A stretch of 64,000 bases of DNA from Saprospiraceae bacterium. Lineage in GTDB: Bacteria; Bacteroidota; Bacteroidia; Chitinophagales; Saprospiraceae. This document shows, piece by piece, positions 13,498-20,399 of this stretch (position 1 is the first letter of the stretch; the number at the start of each line of letters is the position of its first letter). The stretch covers positions 1 through 64,000 of the forward strand of contig JANWVR010000035.1 in assembly GCA_025056735.1 (NCBI GenBank). The letters run 5' to 3'. Below the pieces are notes generated by a model that was not told the DNA's origin, made no database searches, and worked only from the letters and a program-made list of their open reading frames with translations. The position numbers and the translations under genes are program-made.

Positions 13498-14325
13498 TTA
13501 CGACACTTCCTCTACCGCACTCAATTGGCGCAGGAAGGCCAGCAGGCCGTCGAACATATTGCCGTTTTCTTCCTGATGCCAGGTCAGCACTGGCTTTTCG
13601 GCAGCCAGCCCCATCTGCTCGGCTTGCTGGCGCACCTCTGAACCCACCAGAATGACAGCATCGGAGTAATAATAGGCGCCCTTATGCACAGAAGCGCCCT
13701 CCTCGGTGCGATAGGGCTCTAAATGCACCTTCTGGATATTATTTATTGCCGCTTTCTGAATAAAACGGTCGGCGTCTAAGCGCTCGTAGGGAGTGTCGTA
13801 GGCACAGAAGACGATGTTGGATTGGGCAAAAAGCGGCTCCATCTGGTAGGCTTTGCGGGCGTAAAGCGGAATCAAACCCGTAAGCCACCCGTGGCACATG
13901 ATAATGTCGGGTGCCCAACCAAACTTCTTCACCGTCTCTAAGGCGCCCTTACAGAAGAAAGCCATGCGGTCGGGATTGTCCTCAAAAGGCACGCCGTTTT
14001 CGTCCTCAAAAATTTGCTTGCGCCGGAAAAAGTCTTCGTTGTCTAAAAAGTACACCTGCAAGCGGGAACCGGGCACCGAGGCGACCTTGATGATGAGTGG
14101 ATAGTCGTCGTCGTCCACGATGATATTCATACCCGAAAGCCGGACAACCTCGTGCAGACGATGACGGCGCTCGTTGACGATGCCGTAGCGCGGCATCAAG
14201 ATGCGCAATTCAAACCCGTTGTCATGAAGGAGCTTGGGGAGTCGGCTCACTAAGTAGGAAATAAAGTTTCCTTCGGTGTAGGGTTCCATCTCTTGAGTCA
14301 CAAAAAGCAGACGTTTCTTTTCCAT
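13498..14325 (-). CDS. Glycogen/starch synthase N-domain (GT5) protein, short form
   Basis: This 275-residue protein matches the N-terminal half of GT5 glycogen synthases: LLFVTQEMEPYTEGNFISYL, the ELRILMPRYG block, and DIIMCHGWLTGLIPLYARKAY (the DWH-like acceptor-domain region). The C-terminal GT1-type domain that binds ADP-glucose in GlgA (about 470 residues in total) is absent, and no remnant is visible downstream. Short forms like this are annotated as glycogen/starch synthase in Bacteroidota. Catalysis by this domain alone is doubtful. A weak promoter match, TAATTTTG (14403-14396), lies 71 bp upstream. Confidence 0.8.
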   Translation of the reverse strand: MEKKRLLFVTQEMEPYTEGNFISYLVSRLPKLLHDNGFELRILMPRYGIVNERRHRLHEVVRLSGMNIIVDDDDYPLIIKVASVPGSRLQVYFLDNEDFFRRKQIFEDENGVPFEDNPDRMAFFCKGALETVKKFGWAPDIIMCHGWLTGLIPLYARKAYQMEPLFAQSNIVFCAYDTPYERLDADRFIQKAAINNIQKVHLEPYRTEEGASVHKGAYYYSDAVILVGSEVRQQAEQMGLAAEKPVLTWHQEENGNMFDGLLAFLRQLSAVEEVS

Positions 14326-14475
14326 GTAAACAATATTCTGACTGATGTTTCTAATAGCGTCGGATGCACGGCGAGGGATACTCGGAAATGTGGCGCAAAA
14401 TTATAAAGGAAACAGCGTTTAATTCAGCAAATCCATTTAATTTACTCAACGGTCAGCCAACAGCCGTTTTTTTCG

Positions 14476-17385
14476 TCAGTTGTACAGGTACATGCTCCGG
14501 TTTCGCTCCAATTCGCGGAAATACGGGTCTTTGAGGTCGCGAATGAAGTAGATGGCTTCGCCGGTGCTTTTCATCTCCGGGCCAAGGCGTTTGTCTACGC
14601 CAGGGAACTTCTCAAATGAGAAGACCGGCAGTTTGATGGCGTACCCATCTAAGCGCTGTTCTAAGGAGAAATCGCGCACCTTATGCGTGCCCAGCATGAT
14701 TTTAGTGGCAATATTTAGGTAGGGAATACCGTAAGCTTTGGCAATGAACGGGGTGGTACGCGAAGCGCGCGGGTTGGCCTCAATGACGTAAACTTCGTCG
14801 TCTTTGATGGCATACTGGATGTTGATGAGGCCTTTGATGCGCAGAGCACGGGCAATTTTTTCAGCATACTCAACCATGCGCTCGATGACGATGGGGCCGA
14901 GCGAATAGTAGGGCAACACCGCCGAGGAGTCGCCGGAATGGATGCCGGCCGGCTCGATGTGTTCCATGATACCCATGATGTGGAGATCATCGCCGTCGAA
15001 GATGGCGTCTATTTCAGCCTCTTTGGCGCGCTCGAGGAACTGGTCAATAAGGACGCGGTTGTCGGGCATGTGCTTGAAGATGGTCAGCACCTGGCGCTCC
15101 AATTCGTGGTCGTTGATGACGATTTTCATGCGCTGGCCGCCCAGCACATAGCTGGGCCGCACTAACAGCGGATACGGCAGGTGGCGAGCAATTTCGAGCG
15201 CTTCGTCCACATCGCGAGCAGCGCCGTACTTAGGATACGGAATGTCGAGCGATTTGAGTAGGTCGCTAAAGCGCCCGCGGTCTTCGGCGATGTCCATATC
15301 CGGAAAGGCAGTGCCGATGATGTTCCAGCCGTTTTTATGCAGGTCTTCGGCCAGTTTGAGCGCTGTCTGGCCGCCCAGCTGCACAATGACGCCGTCGGGG
15401 CGCTCGTGCTCTAAGATTTCCTCCAGATGCTCCCAATACACCGGCTCGAAGTATAGTTTGTCGGCTACATCGAAGTCGGTGCTCACCGTCTCCGGATTGC
15501 AGTTGACCATGATAGTTTCGTAGCCCATCTCTTTGGCAGCCAGCACGCCGTGCACACAGCAGTAATCAAACTCGATGCCCTGGCCAATGCGGTTGGGGCC
15601 TGAGCCGAGCACGAGAATTTTCTGGCGGTCGCGCTGGACGATACTTTCGTTTTTGGGCTGAAAAACAGGCGCTGGTGCCTCGCTATCCGCCTCGCTCTCT
15701 GCGAGGGAGGGCAGCTGTGCTATGCCGTTCTCAAAGGTGGAATAGAAGTAATTGGTCTTCGACTCGAATTCCGCTGAGCAGGTGTCCACCATTTTATACA
15801 CGCGCCGGATGCCGCGTCGCTTGCGCTCGCGCGCCACCGATTTTTCATCTACGCGCAATAGCCATGCGATTTGGGCATCGGAATAGCCGTTCTTTTTCAA
15901 TTCCAAGAAAAAGTCGTCGGGAATATCTTCGGGCACATTGTAGCGCTGCAGCTGCTCTTCCATGCGCACCAACTTCTTGATTTCCTGGATAAACCACGGG
16001 TCAATGCCGGTCAGCTTCTGCACCGTGCGCGACGGGATGCCCAGCCGCAGGGCGTCTTTGACGCGGTAGATGCGGTCATCGGAGGCCTTTTCTAAGCGCT
16101 CCAGGATGTCGTCGGTCTTGAGCCATTCTTTCATGTCGGCGCCTAAGCCGTTTCGATTGTTTTCCTGGCTCTGGCAGGCTTTCTGAAGGGCCTCTGTGAA
16201 GCAACGCCCAATAGCCATGACCTCACCGACGGACTTCATTTGCAGGCCCAGGCGCACGTCGGCGCCGGGAAACTTCTCAAAGTTCCAGCGCGGCATCTTG
16301 ACGATGACGTAATCCTGCACCGGCTCAAAGAGGGCCGAGGTGGTTTTCGTAATCTGGTTGGCCAGCTCGTCTAAGGTGTACCCAATAGCCAATTTGGCCG
16401 CAATTTTGGCAATGGGATAACCGGTAGCTTTGCTGGCTAAGGCCGACGAGCGCGACACGCGCGGGTTTACTTCGACGGCGATGAGCTCTTCGGTCTCCGG
16501 GTTTTGGGCGAACTGCACGTTGCAGCCGCCGGCGAAATTGCCCAGCCCGCGCATGATGCGCAATGCCTGGTCGCGCATCTTCTGGAAACACGTATCGCTC
16601 AGCGTCATGGCCGGCGCAATAGTGATGCTGTCGCCGGTGTGCACGCCCATGGGGTCAAGATTTTCGACCGTGCAAATGATGACAACGTTGTCGTTGCGGT
16701 CGCGCAGCAGCTCTAACTCGTACTCTTTCCAGCCCAGGACGGCTTTTTCCACGAGTACCTCGTGGGTAGGCGAGGCATTGAGGCCACGCTTGAGCGCTTC
16801 ATCGAAGTCCTCTTCGCGCATCACGAAGCCGCCGCCCGTGCCGCCTAAGGTGTAAGAAGGCCGGATAACGAGTGGAAAGCCAATTTTTTGCGCCGCCTCT
16901 TTGCCCTCCAGAAACGAATTGGCGATGTAAGAGGGCGCTACCGACAGGCCCAGCCCAACGACGAATCGCTTGAACTCTTCGCGGTTTTCGGTCGTCTCGA
17001 TGGCGCGCGTATCCACGCCAATCATACGCACACCGTACTGCTCCCACAGGCCCAACTTTTCGCATTCGATGGCTAAGTTGAGCGCCGTCTGGCCGCCCAT
17101 AGTGGGCAGCACAGCGTCTATGGGCGGCAGGCTGGGGTTTTCCTGGTGCTCTTGCAGGATTTTCTCGATGCTCTCCGGCGTCAGTGGGCGCAGGTAGATG
17201 TAGTCCGCCGTTACCGGGTCGGTCATGATGGTGGCCGGGTTAGAGTTGATAAGCGCCACCTGAATGCCCTCTTCGCGCAGCGAGCGGCTGGCTTGGGAGC
17301 CCGAGTAATCAAATTCGCACGCCTGGCCGATGACGATAGGGCCGGAGCCAATAATCAGAACGGTCTGGATGGATGGGTCTCTCAC
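14476..17385 (-). CDS. carB: Carbamoyl-phosphate synthase large subunit
   Basis: The 969-residue cytoplasmic synthetase makes carbamoyl phosphate for arginine and pyrimidine synthesis, using ammonia supplied by CarA (not in this window). Two ATP-grasp halves are visible: [19 protein letters not shown] at the start and [18 protein letters not shown] at about residue 584. The protein ends shortly after [17 protein letters not shown], so the C-terminal MGS-like allosteric domain of E. coli CarB (about 1073 residues) is missing; shortened CarB is known in Bacteroidota. The start is GTG at 17385, which gives the expected N-terminus (few residues before VLIIGSG). A strong terminator-like hairpin lies immediately upstream, inside the leader. 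Confidence 0.96.
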
Positions 17386-17479
17386 AGCAGGTGTTTTTTT
17401 TAAAAAAAACCGGAAACGGCTGCTCGCGCCGTTTCCGGTTTATCCGACAAATGGAAAGTGTGTCTCTTCTCCGATACAT
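17309..17479 (-). CDS. Possible arginine-rich leader peptide upstream of and overlapping carB
   Basis: An ATG at 17479, only 10 bp after the -7 box of the carB promoter, opens a 56-codon frame. It begins [18 protein letters not shown]: seven arginine codons in the first 18 (CGG AGA AGA at codons 3-5, then CGG, CGG, CGG, CGC). Codons 13-18 lie on the left arm of the terminator hairpin. The frame continues through the hairpin and overlaps carB by 77 nt in another frame. In classical attenuators the leader ORF stops before the terminator, so this is unusual. The later part looks like a shadow of carB, and translation is unproven. Confidence 0.35.
17402..17441 (-). terminator. Intrinsic terminator/attenuator in the carB leader
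   Basis: A perfect 14-bp stem (AAACCGGAAACGGC at 17407-17420, complement at 17428-17441) with a 7-nt loop is followed on the minus strand by eight T residues. It ends about 17 nt before the carB GTG at 17385. There is no room for a promoter between it and carB, so every carB transcript starting upstream must pass it. This favours an attenuator over a simple terminator of the OmpA-family gene, whose stop is 142 bp upstream. Confidence 0.8.
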
Positions 17480-17488
17480 TCCGGAGCG

Positions 17489-17521
17489 CAAAGGTAGCGC
17501 TATTGTGTCGAAATTCTGCAA
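17489..17521 (-). promoter_or_regulatory. Promoter of carB
   Basis: On the minus strand TTTG (TTG at 17521-17519) and TACCTTTG (17496-17489) are separated by 22 bp, matching the Bacteroidota sigma consensus TTG-N17..23-TAnnTTTG. Predicted transcription starts near 17485, giving a leader of about 100 nt that holds the arginine-rich ORF and the hairpin. Confidence 0.6.
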
Positions 17522-17582
17522 AGGGTGCCCGCAAAAACCTGCAAAATCCGGGGCGTTAGCAAAGCGCCGCTTTTGAGCGAGG

Positions 17583-18419
17583 TCATGGCAGCTTCACCAC
17601 CTCGACGCGGCGGTTTTGGGCCCGTCCGCTCTCTTTGCGATTGTCGGCGATAGGTACCTCGGAGCCAAAGCCGCGATATTGTAATCGGTTGGCAGCAATA
17701 CCTTGCTGCACCACCAAATTGTATACGCTACGCGCGCGGCGCTCGGAGAGGGCTTTGTTGTAGGCGGCGTCGCCCACATTGTCGGTGTGGCCGTCAATGC
17801 TAACGCGCAACGAAGGGTTCTGTTTGAGCAAATCCACAATGGCCTGCACCAAAGGCATGGACTCCGGCTTCACCTGGTCGGAATTGGTGTCGAAGAGGAT
17901 GTTCAGGCCGTAGTAGCCGTCGGTTTGCAGCCCTTTCAGGATGTCGTTGGCCTTGATTTCCTGCGTCATCGCCTCGGTTTCCACAATGTTCAGATTGAAT
18001 TGAATGGGATTGAACAGGAAACCCGTTACGCCCACCCACACGGAACGCCCGTCGCGGTCGAGGCGAAAGGTGGCGCGCTGCATTTTTTCATCCAGCAACA
18101 GCGTTTTGCCACCGATGCGCTGTATAGCGTTCTCGTAATTGCGCATGATTTGCAACGCGCTGGGTTCCTGAGCGCCTCTGTCGTGTTTGTAGTAAATGCG
18201 CGTGCGCTTGCCCTCTACGCGCTGGCGCTTACCCTCGGGTAGGAAGAACTCGAAGGCGTCGTAGTTATTCGAGTACTCTTGAATGTAAAAGTTGCTCATT
18301 CGGTTAAACATCGGGTGGTCAGAGGCACCAGGCTTGTCTTTAGGGTGGTTGTTTTGCGAAAGCGCCGGAAGGGTAGCCAGCGACGTCAGTAGAAGCAATG
18401 AAAAAAGGGCTTTTTTCAT
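17583..18419 (-). CDS. OmpA-family outer-membrane protein
   Basis: This 278-residue exported protein has a signal peptide at about 1-21 (PALSQ). The N-terminal part of about 150 residues is of unknown fold. Residues about 160-278 form an OmpA C-domain that binds peptidoglycan: the conserved ILFDTNSDQVKPES start, SIDGHTDNVGDAAYNKALSERRA and YRGFGSEVPIADN. The N-terminal segment (FFLPEGKRQRVEGKRTRIYY) is of a type found in Bacteroidota OmpA proteins that lack a full eight-strand barrel. A TACTTTTG box (18470-18463) lies 44 bp upstream with a TTG at a rather long 25-bp spacing. Confidence 0.88.
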   Translation of the reverse strand: MKKALFSLLLLTSLATLPALSQNNHPKDKPGASDHPMFNRMSNFYIQEYSNNYDAFEFFLPEGKRQRVEGKRTRIYYKHDRGAQEPSALQIMRNYENAIQRIGGKTLLLDEKMQRATFRLDRDGRSVWVGVTGFLFNPIQFNLNIVETEAMTQEIKANDILKGLQTDGYYGLNILFDTNSDQVKPESMPLVQAIVDLLKQNPSLRVSIDGHTDNVGDAAYNKALSERRARSVYNLVVQQGIAANRLQYRGFGSEVPIADNRKESGRAQNRRVEVVKLP

Positions 18420-18602
18420 AAGTCGGATTGAGATGAATGTGCAATCGGTGAAATATTATGGGCAAAAGTAGGAAAATATCCAGAAGAATACCCTTCAAGC
18501 ATGTGAATTTTTGATTAAAAAAGAAGAAACGATGTTTTGCCAAATCCAGAGCAGGCATGACTTTCTGCATGCTTTTATCCAGCGTGGCGGTTGGGATTAA
18601 GA

Positions 18603-20399
18603 TTACTTGACAAATAGAGCACCTTTCAGTTGCTGGACTCGCCGTGTTCTATCTTCCATCCAGACCTCGTGCACGAAGAGACGGTAGGTGCGCGGGCCTC
18701 TGACCCAGTCCAGAGTGCTGAGGCTATCCGGCATTCGTCCTTCGCGTTTTCGGCCCTCGGTCTCCCATTGGAGCAGGCGCTGCCCAAATTCGAGCGTATC
18801 TGCAACGGTCTGAGCGCCGTTGAGGCGAACCACCATCTCCTTCCCTGAGGACGACAAGCGCACGCTAAGCAACGTCTTCGTCTCCGGCGGCGAGGAGGCC
18901 ACTAAGTTGATTGCATAAAACGTGCGAAAGCCGGCAATACTGACCGATACAGGCGTTTGTTTGGGGTCTTCAGCAGTCAGATACAGGGTCTCGTAGCTGC
19001 CTTGCCGCTCCAGACCCAGATGCTCGAGCACCCTCTGAGTACGCTCGAAAGGAAATAACGAGTCCGGTGCGATAGTTGCTATCGGCTCCGAAAGCCAGCT
19101 GCTTATGCGCTCTAAGGCGCCCTGCTCGCTCAGGAAGTACAGAATAGAGCGCAGCCGCTCGCGATCTTCGTCGGGCAGCGTTGAAAGGTTTTTCTTCAGA
19201 AGGCCGCTGCTCTCAAAGGCCTGATTTTTTTCCAAAATTTCTTTCAAAATGCCCACCTGGCTGCGCTGCGACACTTCAAAAGCACTAAAAGGGCCCACGA
19301 TAGCCGGCACAATAAACAAGGCTAACGACACAGGGATGAAGCGAATGTCATCCGCCTTTGACCATAAAAAATACACGCAGGCCACCAACAACCACACGCC
19401 TGTATGCGCCACGAAATAACGCTCGGGCGTAACGCCATAATCCGAGATGCGCCGACTGATGGCGATAAACAGCAGCACAATCATCGGCGCCAACACCCAC
19501 CAGAAGAACCGCTGATAAAGCGGTACCCAACGGCTGACGGGGAATTCGGGCAGGCGGTAGCTGATGAGGTAAGTGAAAATACCGGCCACCGAAAAGCCCA
19601 GCACCAGCGACGACACCCAACCGCGCGGCAAGTTCCACTCGAGCAGAATTTTAGCCGAATAGGCGTATAGAATGAGAAAGTACAGCCCCACTATCGGCAC
19701 AAACACGTACTGGCACAGATTCTTAAGAAGGACGGGATAGCCCACCTCGTCGTCGTCGAAGGTCATGCGCTTAGGAAAGTGGTAGAGAAAAAACGTCGTC
19801 TGGAACAGGCCCGCCACCACCGCAAACAGATAGCCATAGACTCGCCCGGTCCATTTGAGGTCAAACAACGCATTAACAGCGGCAATAGCCAGCGCTAACC
19901 CTAAGAAAAGGATGGCCGCATACACAACGCCGACGACAAAGTGCGTCAGCAGGCGCTTGTTGTATTCCCAGAAATCGGCCACAACGCCGCGGCGGCTCAG
20001 GAAGGGCGACACAGACGTCCATAGATGCGCCGCAACCAACACTAAGAAATAGCGCGGTACCTGCACGCCTTCCCAGCTAGGATGCTTAGGGTACAACAAC
20101 AAAAAACAGACCGCCGCTGCCAAAAGTCCCAGACTTTGAAGCGCGTAATTCTTCCACCCCTCCCACCCTATTCGCTCGGCCAGCGCTGCGAAGCCAATGC
20201 TCAAAGGCAAACCCAGCAGAGCTGCCATAGCCAACTTGGTACTGTCTGTATTCTCTACTTCGAGGGCAATCAACTGAATAAGCGCGCCCGTGAACGCCGC
20301 AGCACACACCATAGCCGCCGGAAAACGCGCGCAGGCCTCTGCAAAGGCCCGAAGCCACAGAGAAATCGAAAACAAAGGAAGCCGTAGGGAGAAACCCAT
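18603..20399 (-). CDS. DUF4153 family integral membrane protein
   Basis: The 598-residue protein has roughly 11-12 hydrophobic helices in its first 400 residues, followed by a soluble C-terminal domain of about 190 residues. The RRGVVADFWEYNKRLLTHFVVG, LAIAAVNALFDL and FPKRMTFDDDEVGYPVLLKNLCQYVFVPI blocks match DUF4153, a family of unknown function. The start at 20399 gives a short cytoplasmic stretch before the first helix. It is divergent from the next gene, with about 100 bp between them. Confidence 0.8.
   Translation of the reverse strand: MGFSLRLPLFSISLWLRAFAEACARFPAAMVCAAAFTGALIQLIALEVENTDSTKLAMAALLGLPLSIGFAALAERIGWEGWKNYALQSLGLLAAAVCFLLLYPKHPSWEGVQVPRYFLVLVAAHLWTSVSPFLSRRGVVADFWEYNKRLLTHFVVGVVYAAILFLGLALAIAAVNALFDLKWTGRVYGYLFAVVAGLFQTTFFLYHFPKRMTFDDDEVGYPVLLKNLCQYVFVPIVGLYFLILYAYSAKILLEWNLPRGWVSSLVLGFSVAGIFTYLISYRLPEFPVSRWVPLYQRFFWWVLAPMIVLLFIAISRRISDYGVTPERYFVAHTGVWLLVACVYFLWSKADDIRFIPVSLALFIVPAIVGPFSAFEVSQRSQVGILKEILEKNQAFESSGLLKKNLSTLPDEDRERLRSILYFLSEQGALERISSWLSEPIATIAPDSLFPFERTQRVLEHLGLERQGSYETLYLTAEDPKQTPVSVSIAGFRTFYAINLVASSPPETKTLLSVRLSSSGKEMVVRLNGAQTVADTLEFGQRLLQWETEGRKREGRMPDSLSTLDWVRGPRTYRLFVHEVWMEDRTRRVQQLKGALFVK

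Follow-up and report, generated by a model that had tools for sequence, protein, structure and literature searches.

The carB gene in the window, by which we mean the whole analysed stretch of 64,000 nucleotides, is preceded by a leader that, judging from its conservation and covariation, is genuine and maintained in a group of uncultured Saprospiraceae. We interpret this leader as a translation-coupled attenuator of the pyrBI/carA type with pyrimidine supply as the sensed condition, and assign this interpretation a probability of about 0.5. If correct, it would provide a clear and testable case of attenuation for a pyrimidine-pathway gene in Bacteroidota. The initial annotation had joined a promoter, a short open reading frame (ORF) and a terminator hairpin into a single carB leader, and the conservation of the whole arrangement in the genus agrees with this view.

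All elements lie on the minus strand. The carB gene (14476..17385, GTG start at 17385) encodes a protein recognized by Pfam as the large chain of carbamoyl-phosphate synthase, and its full-length relatives from the genus are 82-96% identical to it. The MGS-like C-terminal (allosteric) domain was not matched by Pfam in the 969 residues of the window CarB. In E. coli, this domain carries the inhibition of CarB by UMP, and if it is missing here, control at the level of expression would weigh more. The promoter was read as TTTG, 22 nucleotides and TACCTTTG, followed by an ATG, and this layout is confirmed: TTTG, a possible -33 element, is found at 17519..17522, the -7 element TACCTTTG at 17489..17496, and 9 nt separate the latter from the ATG at 17479. 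By eye, constancy of the far TTTG is not apparent among relatives. The leader ORF (17309..17479) passes through the hairpin and over the carB start out of frame; only its stretch as far as the hairpin is open in all relatives. The hairpin itself, P2, is a predicted intrinsic terminator with a 14-bp stem and a loop of 7 (17407..17441, -24.3 kcal/mol). The perfect 14-bp stem described earlier thus stands, but the eight T's said to follow it (17402..17409) are not separate from it: three of them are paired in the stem, leaving either T5 after a 14-bp stem or T8 after an 11-bp stem. In a generic scan of 5 kb, 11 sites resembled terminators where 6.5 would be expected, and P2 has the longest stem among them. 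The stronger evidence beyond chance is conservation at carB in 39 genomes, with covariation.

The distribution of the leader was followed with a covariance model, R1, built from 16 of the 22 distinct carB leaders found upstream of carB genes of the genus. The window leader, which is itself among these 16, is matched at 17401..17496 with 69.3 bits. A search of 42 genus genomes gave a match with E no higher than 6e-7 in 39, in every case 5' of carB; weak matches, reaching E 1, are present in every one of the 42. The three genomes without a strong match contain only the C-terminal part of carB (G015) or only distant homologues (G050 and G055). In 298 genomes of the order, matches below 1e-6 were confined to eight members of the genus. 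Within the family (398 genomes), E 5e-4 is reached by 34: 30 belong to the genus, and one, G398, is from another genus and has a true carB leader (E 7e-6). The remaining three (G522, G391 and G484) were rejected, as their hits are without carB and resemble other terminators. The titled records that carry the leader are mostly labelled as Saprospiraceae MAGs. Strong matches occur at carB only, and the idea of a multi-gene element was abandoned.

Support for P2 comes from the pattern of sequence change. When 40 leaders are aligned to the model, both partners have changed in 13 of the 14 P2 pairs and 97.4% of the cells are paired, and sliding the partners against each other destroys the signal. 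For the whole structure, the fitted alignment contains 92 cells with changes on both sides, against 16.6 in shuffles. A plain MAFFT alignment of 16 leaders still gives 8 of 14 P2 pairs with changes on both sides, and 31 such cells against 8.4 in shuffles. The pattern TA.CTT[TC]G precedes the hairpin in 39/39 leaders of the genus, although it was also a search criterion for these leaders. A second TAnnTT(T/C)G between the T-run and carB is absent from 38 of the 39 spacers; the single exception (G048) is located inside an inserted gene. The looser nAnnTTTG is found in three spacers (G004, G019 and G020), and the carA-type ACCTTTG in none of the 39. P2 could have been the terminator of the upstream gene, but this was rejected: in 18 of the 39 cases the opposite strand carries the longest upstream ORF (same strand in 20, undetermined in 1; the ORFs are uncurated). 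Since a second consensus -7 box is missing in 38/39 spacers and the upstream ORF is so often opposite, the hairpin is most likely part of the carB transcript. The conserved leader and the lack of a second consensus -7 box would thus place carB behind a premature terminator that is overlapped by a short ORF, as is the case for E. coli pyrBI and Pseudomonas carA.

An ATG is found 9-16 nt past the -7 box in all 39 genus leaders (9 nt in 34, 10 nt in three, 13 nt in G040 and 16 nt in G014). As anticipated for the window, where the frame continues to about 17309, the frame reaches the left arm of P2 in 39/39, even if in G003 and G040 the stop codon barely makes contact with the stem. In G398, the ATG is at 16 nt and opens a frame of 20 codons whose end lies in the stem. 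For the 16 leader clusters, the product of the open-frame chances in composition shuffles is about 2e-5; the two other frames contain stops in 6 and 5 of the 16 clusters (the TGA made by ATGA itself left out). As the clusters share ancestry, this statistic is support, not proof, and similar open-frame lengths in other genera indicate that this feature is not special to the genus. The peptide is not conserved (MKKR... in many leaders; MYRRR, MYRKRR or MSSRR in the subclade of the window), and the register between frame and stem varies from species to species. At position -3 of the leader ATG, 32 of the 39 leaders have G, six have A and one has C. A is favoured at this position in Flavobacterium (PMC6847099). 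Bacteroidota ribosomes generally do without Shine-Dalgarno pairing (PMC6847099, PMC9976891), and short ORFs have been noted in long 5' UTRs of Bacteroides (PMC7366714).

The arrangement suggests how carB may be controlled. We infer that transcription begins directly past TACCTTTG and that the carB mRNA would meet P2, a strong predicted terminator, before carB. Translation of the short ORF would start close to the 5' end and proceed into P2. A ribosome close behind the RNA polymerase would cover the left arm of P2, so that no hairpin forms and carB is transcribed, whereas a lagging ribosome, or failure to initiate, would allow P2 to form and to stop transcription in vivo. Translation thus probably decides whether carB is transcribed. 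Points against this model are that A is rare at position -3 of the leader ATG, that the presumed 5' leader before the ATG would be very short, that U-runs suited to a UTP-sensing pause are short in several clusters, that no such leader was found at carA in 30 loci, and that terminators without an ORF exist at carB in a few other genera and at carA in P. syringae. If leader translation controls P2, translation and transcription would be coupled at least early in carB.

Attenuation of this kind is already known from E. coli pyrBI and Pseudomonas carA. In the pyrBI attenuator, the terminator is inside the leader ORF and is suppressed when a ribosome follows the polymerase closely. One study likewise locates the pyrBI terminator in the leader gene, and reports for E. 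coli that termination dropped from about 90% to under 10% once a stop codon had been moved to a point 5 bp ahead of a terminator (PMC4824070). A point against coupling in the present leader is its statement that terminators within 100 bp of the start of a coding region escape repression by ribosomes unless pausing helps (PMC4824070). The carB leader shares with pyrBI the terminator inside the leader ORF and the control of a pyrimidine pathway gene, a likeness drawn without sequence comparison. It differs in that its ORF begins almost at the presumed 5' end of the RNA, and in that its U-runs are not constant. For Pseudomonas carA, a leader terminator is described in another report, in which pyrimidine attenuation and a leader peptide are mentioned for P. 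aeruginosa (PMC4997734). In P. syringae, removing or breaking the stem-loop raised expression of a carA reporter, the terminator is without a leader ORF, and arginine raised expression (PMC4997734). The common features are the enzyme and a promoter and terminator upstream, accompanied in P. aeruginosa by a leader peptide, again without sequence comparison; the Pseudomonas car operon belongs to another phylum and has an ArgR site, whereas here carB stands alone and carA is located apart, without a terminator. Leader-peptide attenuation of amino-acid operons has been proposed for Flavobacterium psychrophilum (PMC9723704). Such attenuators also have a short ORF before a terminator, but the carB leader has no constant run of codons for a single amino acid and no antiterminator was seen in it, and its ORF ends in or beyond the terminator. 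Searches of the open-licence literature did not bring up a carB attenuator from Saprospiraceae.

As regards the signal, pyrimidine supply is more likely than arginine, and would act on polymerase pausing. PyrR is found over the cut-off in 38 of the 42 genomes of the genus, that of the window (G000) included. In G000, the PyrR homologue precedes an aspartate/ornithine carbamoyltransferase gene, which is probably pyrB. These findings on PyrR, together with the evidence against arginine given below, are the reason why pyrimidine supply is preferred. In the region before the terminator where the polymerase might pause, the T fraction in the last 20 nt is 0.20-0.55 and the longest T-run is 1-7 among the 16 clusters. 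Runs suited to a UTP-sensing pause are short in several of them, with a longest T-run of only 1-2 in G002, G010, G011 and G040.

Many leaders contain a further hairpin, P1 (CCGAA-A-UGAA ... UUCA-N-UUCGG), whose 5' arm includes the start codon. P1 shows paired changes (CCGAC/GUCGG in G003 and G012, CCAAAA/UUUUGG in G005) and one added pair (CCGAAA/UUUCGG) in G004, G008 and G023. Changes on both sides affect 6 of its 9 pairs in the fitted alignment and 3 of 9 in the plain one, and the outer arm has at least five contiguous pairs in 31 of 40 leaders. Arms of the same leader form 4.83 contiguous pairs on average, compared to 4.36 for arms swapped between leaders; the difference is small because most arms are alike. 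The mean folding z over the 16 clusters is -1.24, with values near or above zero for G000, G002, G011, G014 and G040. P1 is not predicted in the first four of these and is weak in G040. P1 is thus widespread in the genus, yet the subclade of the window lacks it or has a weak form, and it is not essential. Its loop varies. Where present, it might serve as a pause hairpin or as a brake on leader translation.

The conservation of P1 in most of the genus, its paired changes and the frequency of PyrR would suit a model in which a regulator, PyrR with UMP, another RNA-binding protein or a ligand, binds P1 and decides on P2 formation or leader translation. We regard this model as unlikely, given the leaders in which P1 is not predicted or weak, and the variable loop. 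Moreover, P1 and P2 do not overlap, so that P1 is no obvious antiterminator, and no PyrR match was found in the leader-bearing genome G003 (96% complete, 1000 contigs). At E up to 1, no Rfam family matches the region 14000-18700. The PyrR element in Rfam was built on other phyla, and the missing match is therefore weak evidence. A pairing of the 3' arm of P1 with the left arm of P2, as an antiterminator, was considered and found by eye not to be conserved. It is also very doubtful that folding of P1, perhaps set by the start base in a C-rich start region, gates leader translation and hence the reading of carB. If it did, start-site choice, translation initiation and termination would be joined in a switch of about 85 bases, and a Bacteroidota attenuator would carry the start codon of a nearly leaderless ORF in a 5'-terminal hairpin. 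Start-site switching at the C-run is weakened as an idea by the occurrence of CCCC at the same place in several carA promoters of the genus.

The control by arginine that the initial annotation had proposed, in which ribosome stalling at Arg codons of the leader would decide P2 formation and link carB to arginine, has become quite improbable. The observation behind it is correct: the window ORF has seven Arg among its first 18 codons, three of them at codons 3-5. In the genus, 34 of 39 leaders have Arg within codons 2-6, and the Arg fraction of the 16 clusters (0.146) is about twice that of composition shuffles (0.075). Nevertheless, alignment of the carB leaders of relatives recovered a conserved hairpin and no constant Arg codons. 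No conserved run of Arg codons was found among the 39 leaders; the number of Arg codons before the stem varies from 0 to 4, and is zero in five leaders. Strong Arg richness is a trait of the subclade of the window. In G054, the nearest relative by CarB (96% identical), the frame is shifted by one base after MYRRRET, and due to this shift the four later Arg codons of the window (12, 15, 17 and 18) are replaced by Ser, Pro, Ala and Ala. The CGG bases stay in the stem nevertheless, in line with the earlier suspicion that the CGG codons are by-products of the stem, which is what the later Arg codons of the window look like. The early Arg codons fall in the MKKR stretch that belongs to P1. We infer that the Arg excess comes from this stretch and from GC-rich stems. 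The genomes also argue against an arginine signal. As to a gene product serving arginine synthesis, argininosuccinate synthase (ArgG) has no match in the four genomes of the subclade, those of the window and its three nearest relatives (G000, G002, G011 and G054; 99-100% complete, controls 14/14). ArgG is over the cut-off in 21 of 42 genus genomes and below it in 18 of the 39 with a leader, some of which are incomplete. Leaders of genomes with ArgG are not richer in Arg: the mean Arg count is 2.22 without ArgG (n=18) and 1.57 with it (n=21). Arg-rich leader peptides can arise from GC-rich stems, and the attractive arginine reading is replaced by that of a proposed pyrimidine-responsive attenuator.

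The leader could also give rise to a short terminated transcript that acts in trans as a small RNA, with carB receiving read-through. The leader has its own promoter and terminator, and in most cases a 5' hairpin, and 654-1377 nt, with a gene or gene remnant inside, separate it from carB in G007, G009, G020 and G048. Moreover, a small RNA from the carA leader has been proposed in P. syringae (PMC4997734). We consider such a role very unlikely, as strong genus matches (E below 1e-6) occur once per genome and always upstream of carB, and as the unpaired parts vary apart from the start region, with the consensus CCCCGAAATGAAAAAACGA. Equally little credence is given to a fixed promoter-proximal terminator that only damps carB without regulation: terminators without an ORF do precede carB in a few other genera, but the ATG and the open frame are kept in 39/39 genus leaders and in G398 despite sequence change.

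Hairpins conserved without the ORF, which had been named in advance as refuting the proposed attenuator, are absent inside the genus; elsewhere, a few genera do have ATG-less carB terminators. Among 67 loci of carB from other-genus genomes (L114-L180, a few with little upstream sequence), a terminator-like hairpin after the promoter was found by script in L120 (G398) and L178 (G231), and by eye perhaps in L172. In 77 titled carB loci with enough upstream sequence, hairpins without an ATG were also found in L243, L248 and L260, starting 48, 21 and 22 nt past the -7 box; with L178, the range for ATG-less hairpins is 19-48 nt. The occurrence of carB terminators with and without an ORF across genera indicates that they arose more than once or were remodelled. 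The ATG-less cases, and P. syringae carA, also indicate that the terminator there does not always need an ORF. By eye, many of the L114-L180 loci share a stretch like CNNGCAATTT in the first 10 nt past the carB -7 box, with which the carB transcripts of many other genera would open, sometimes with a complement, AAATTG, before the start codon.

The leader was not found on partner genes. No terminator was detected between promoter and start of carA in 30 loci examined of 41 matches (two with under 100 nt of upstream sequence; L285 shows no promoter), and no such leader was seen by eye at pyrR in four loci. Most carA genes of the genus (L261-L290) seem, by eye, to use GACCTTTG rather than TACCTTTG as the -7 box.

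Some genomes carry insertions around carB. The gap between leader and carB in G048 contains, on the same strand, a gene of 444 codons for a Laminin_G_3-like protein, and by eye a similar gene is present in G020. In G009, the gap contains a same-strand ORF of 128 codons flanked by CAATCGA repeats, and a stop breaks the G007 version. Short fragments that match CarB only in its C-terminal part occur downstream of carB in G007 (G007:C1:687946-689025), G009 (G009:C3:1005753-1009219) and G019, an arrangement suggestive of elements inserted at the carB 3' end.
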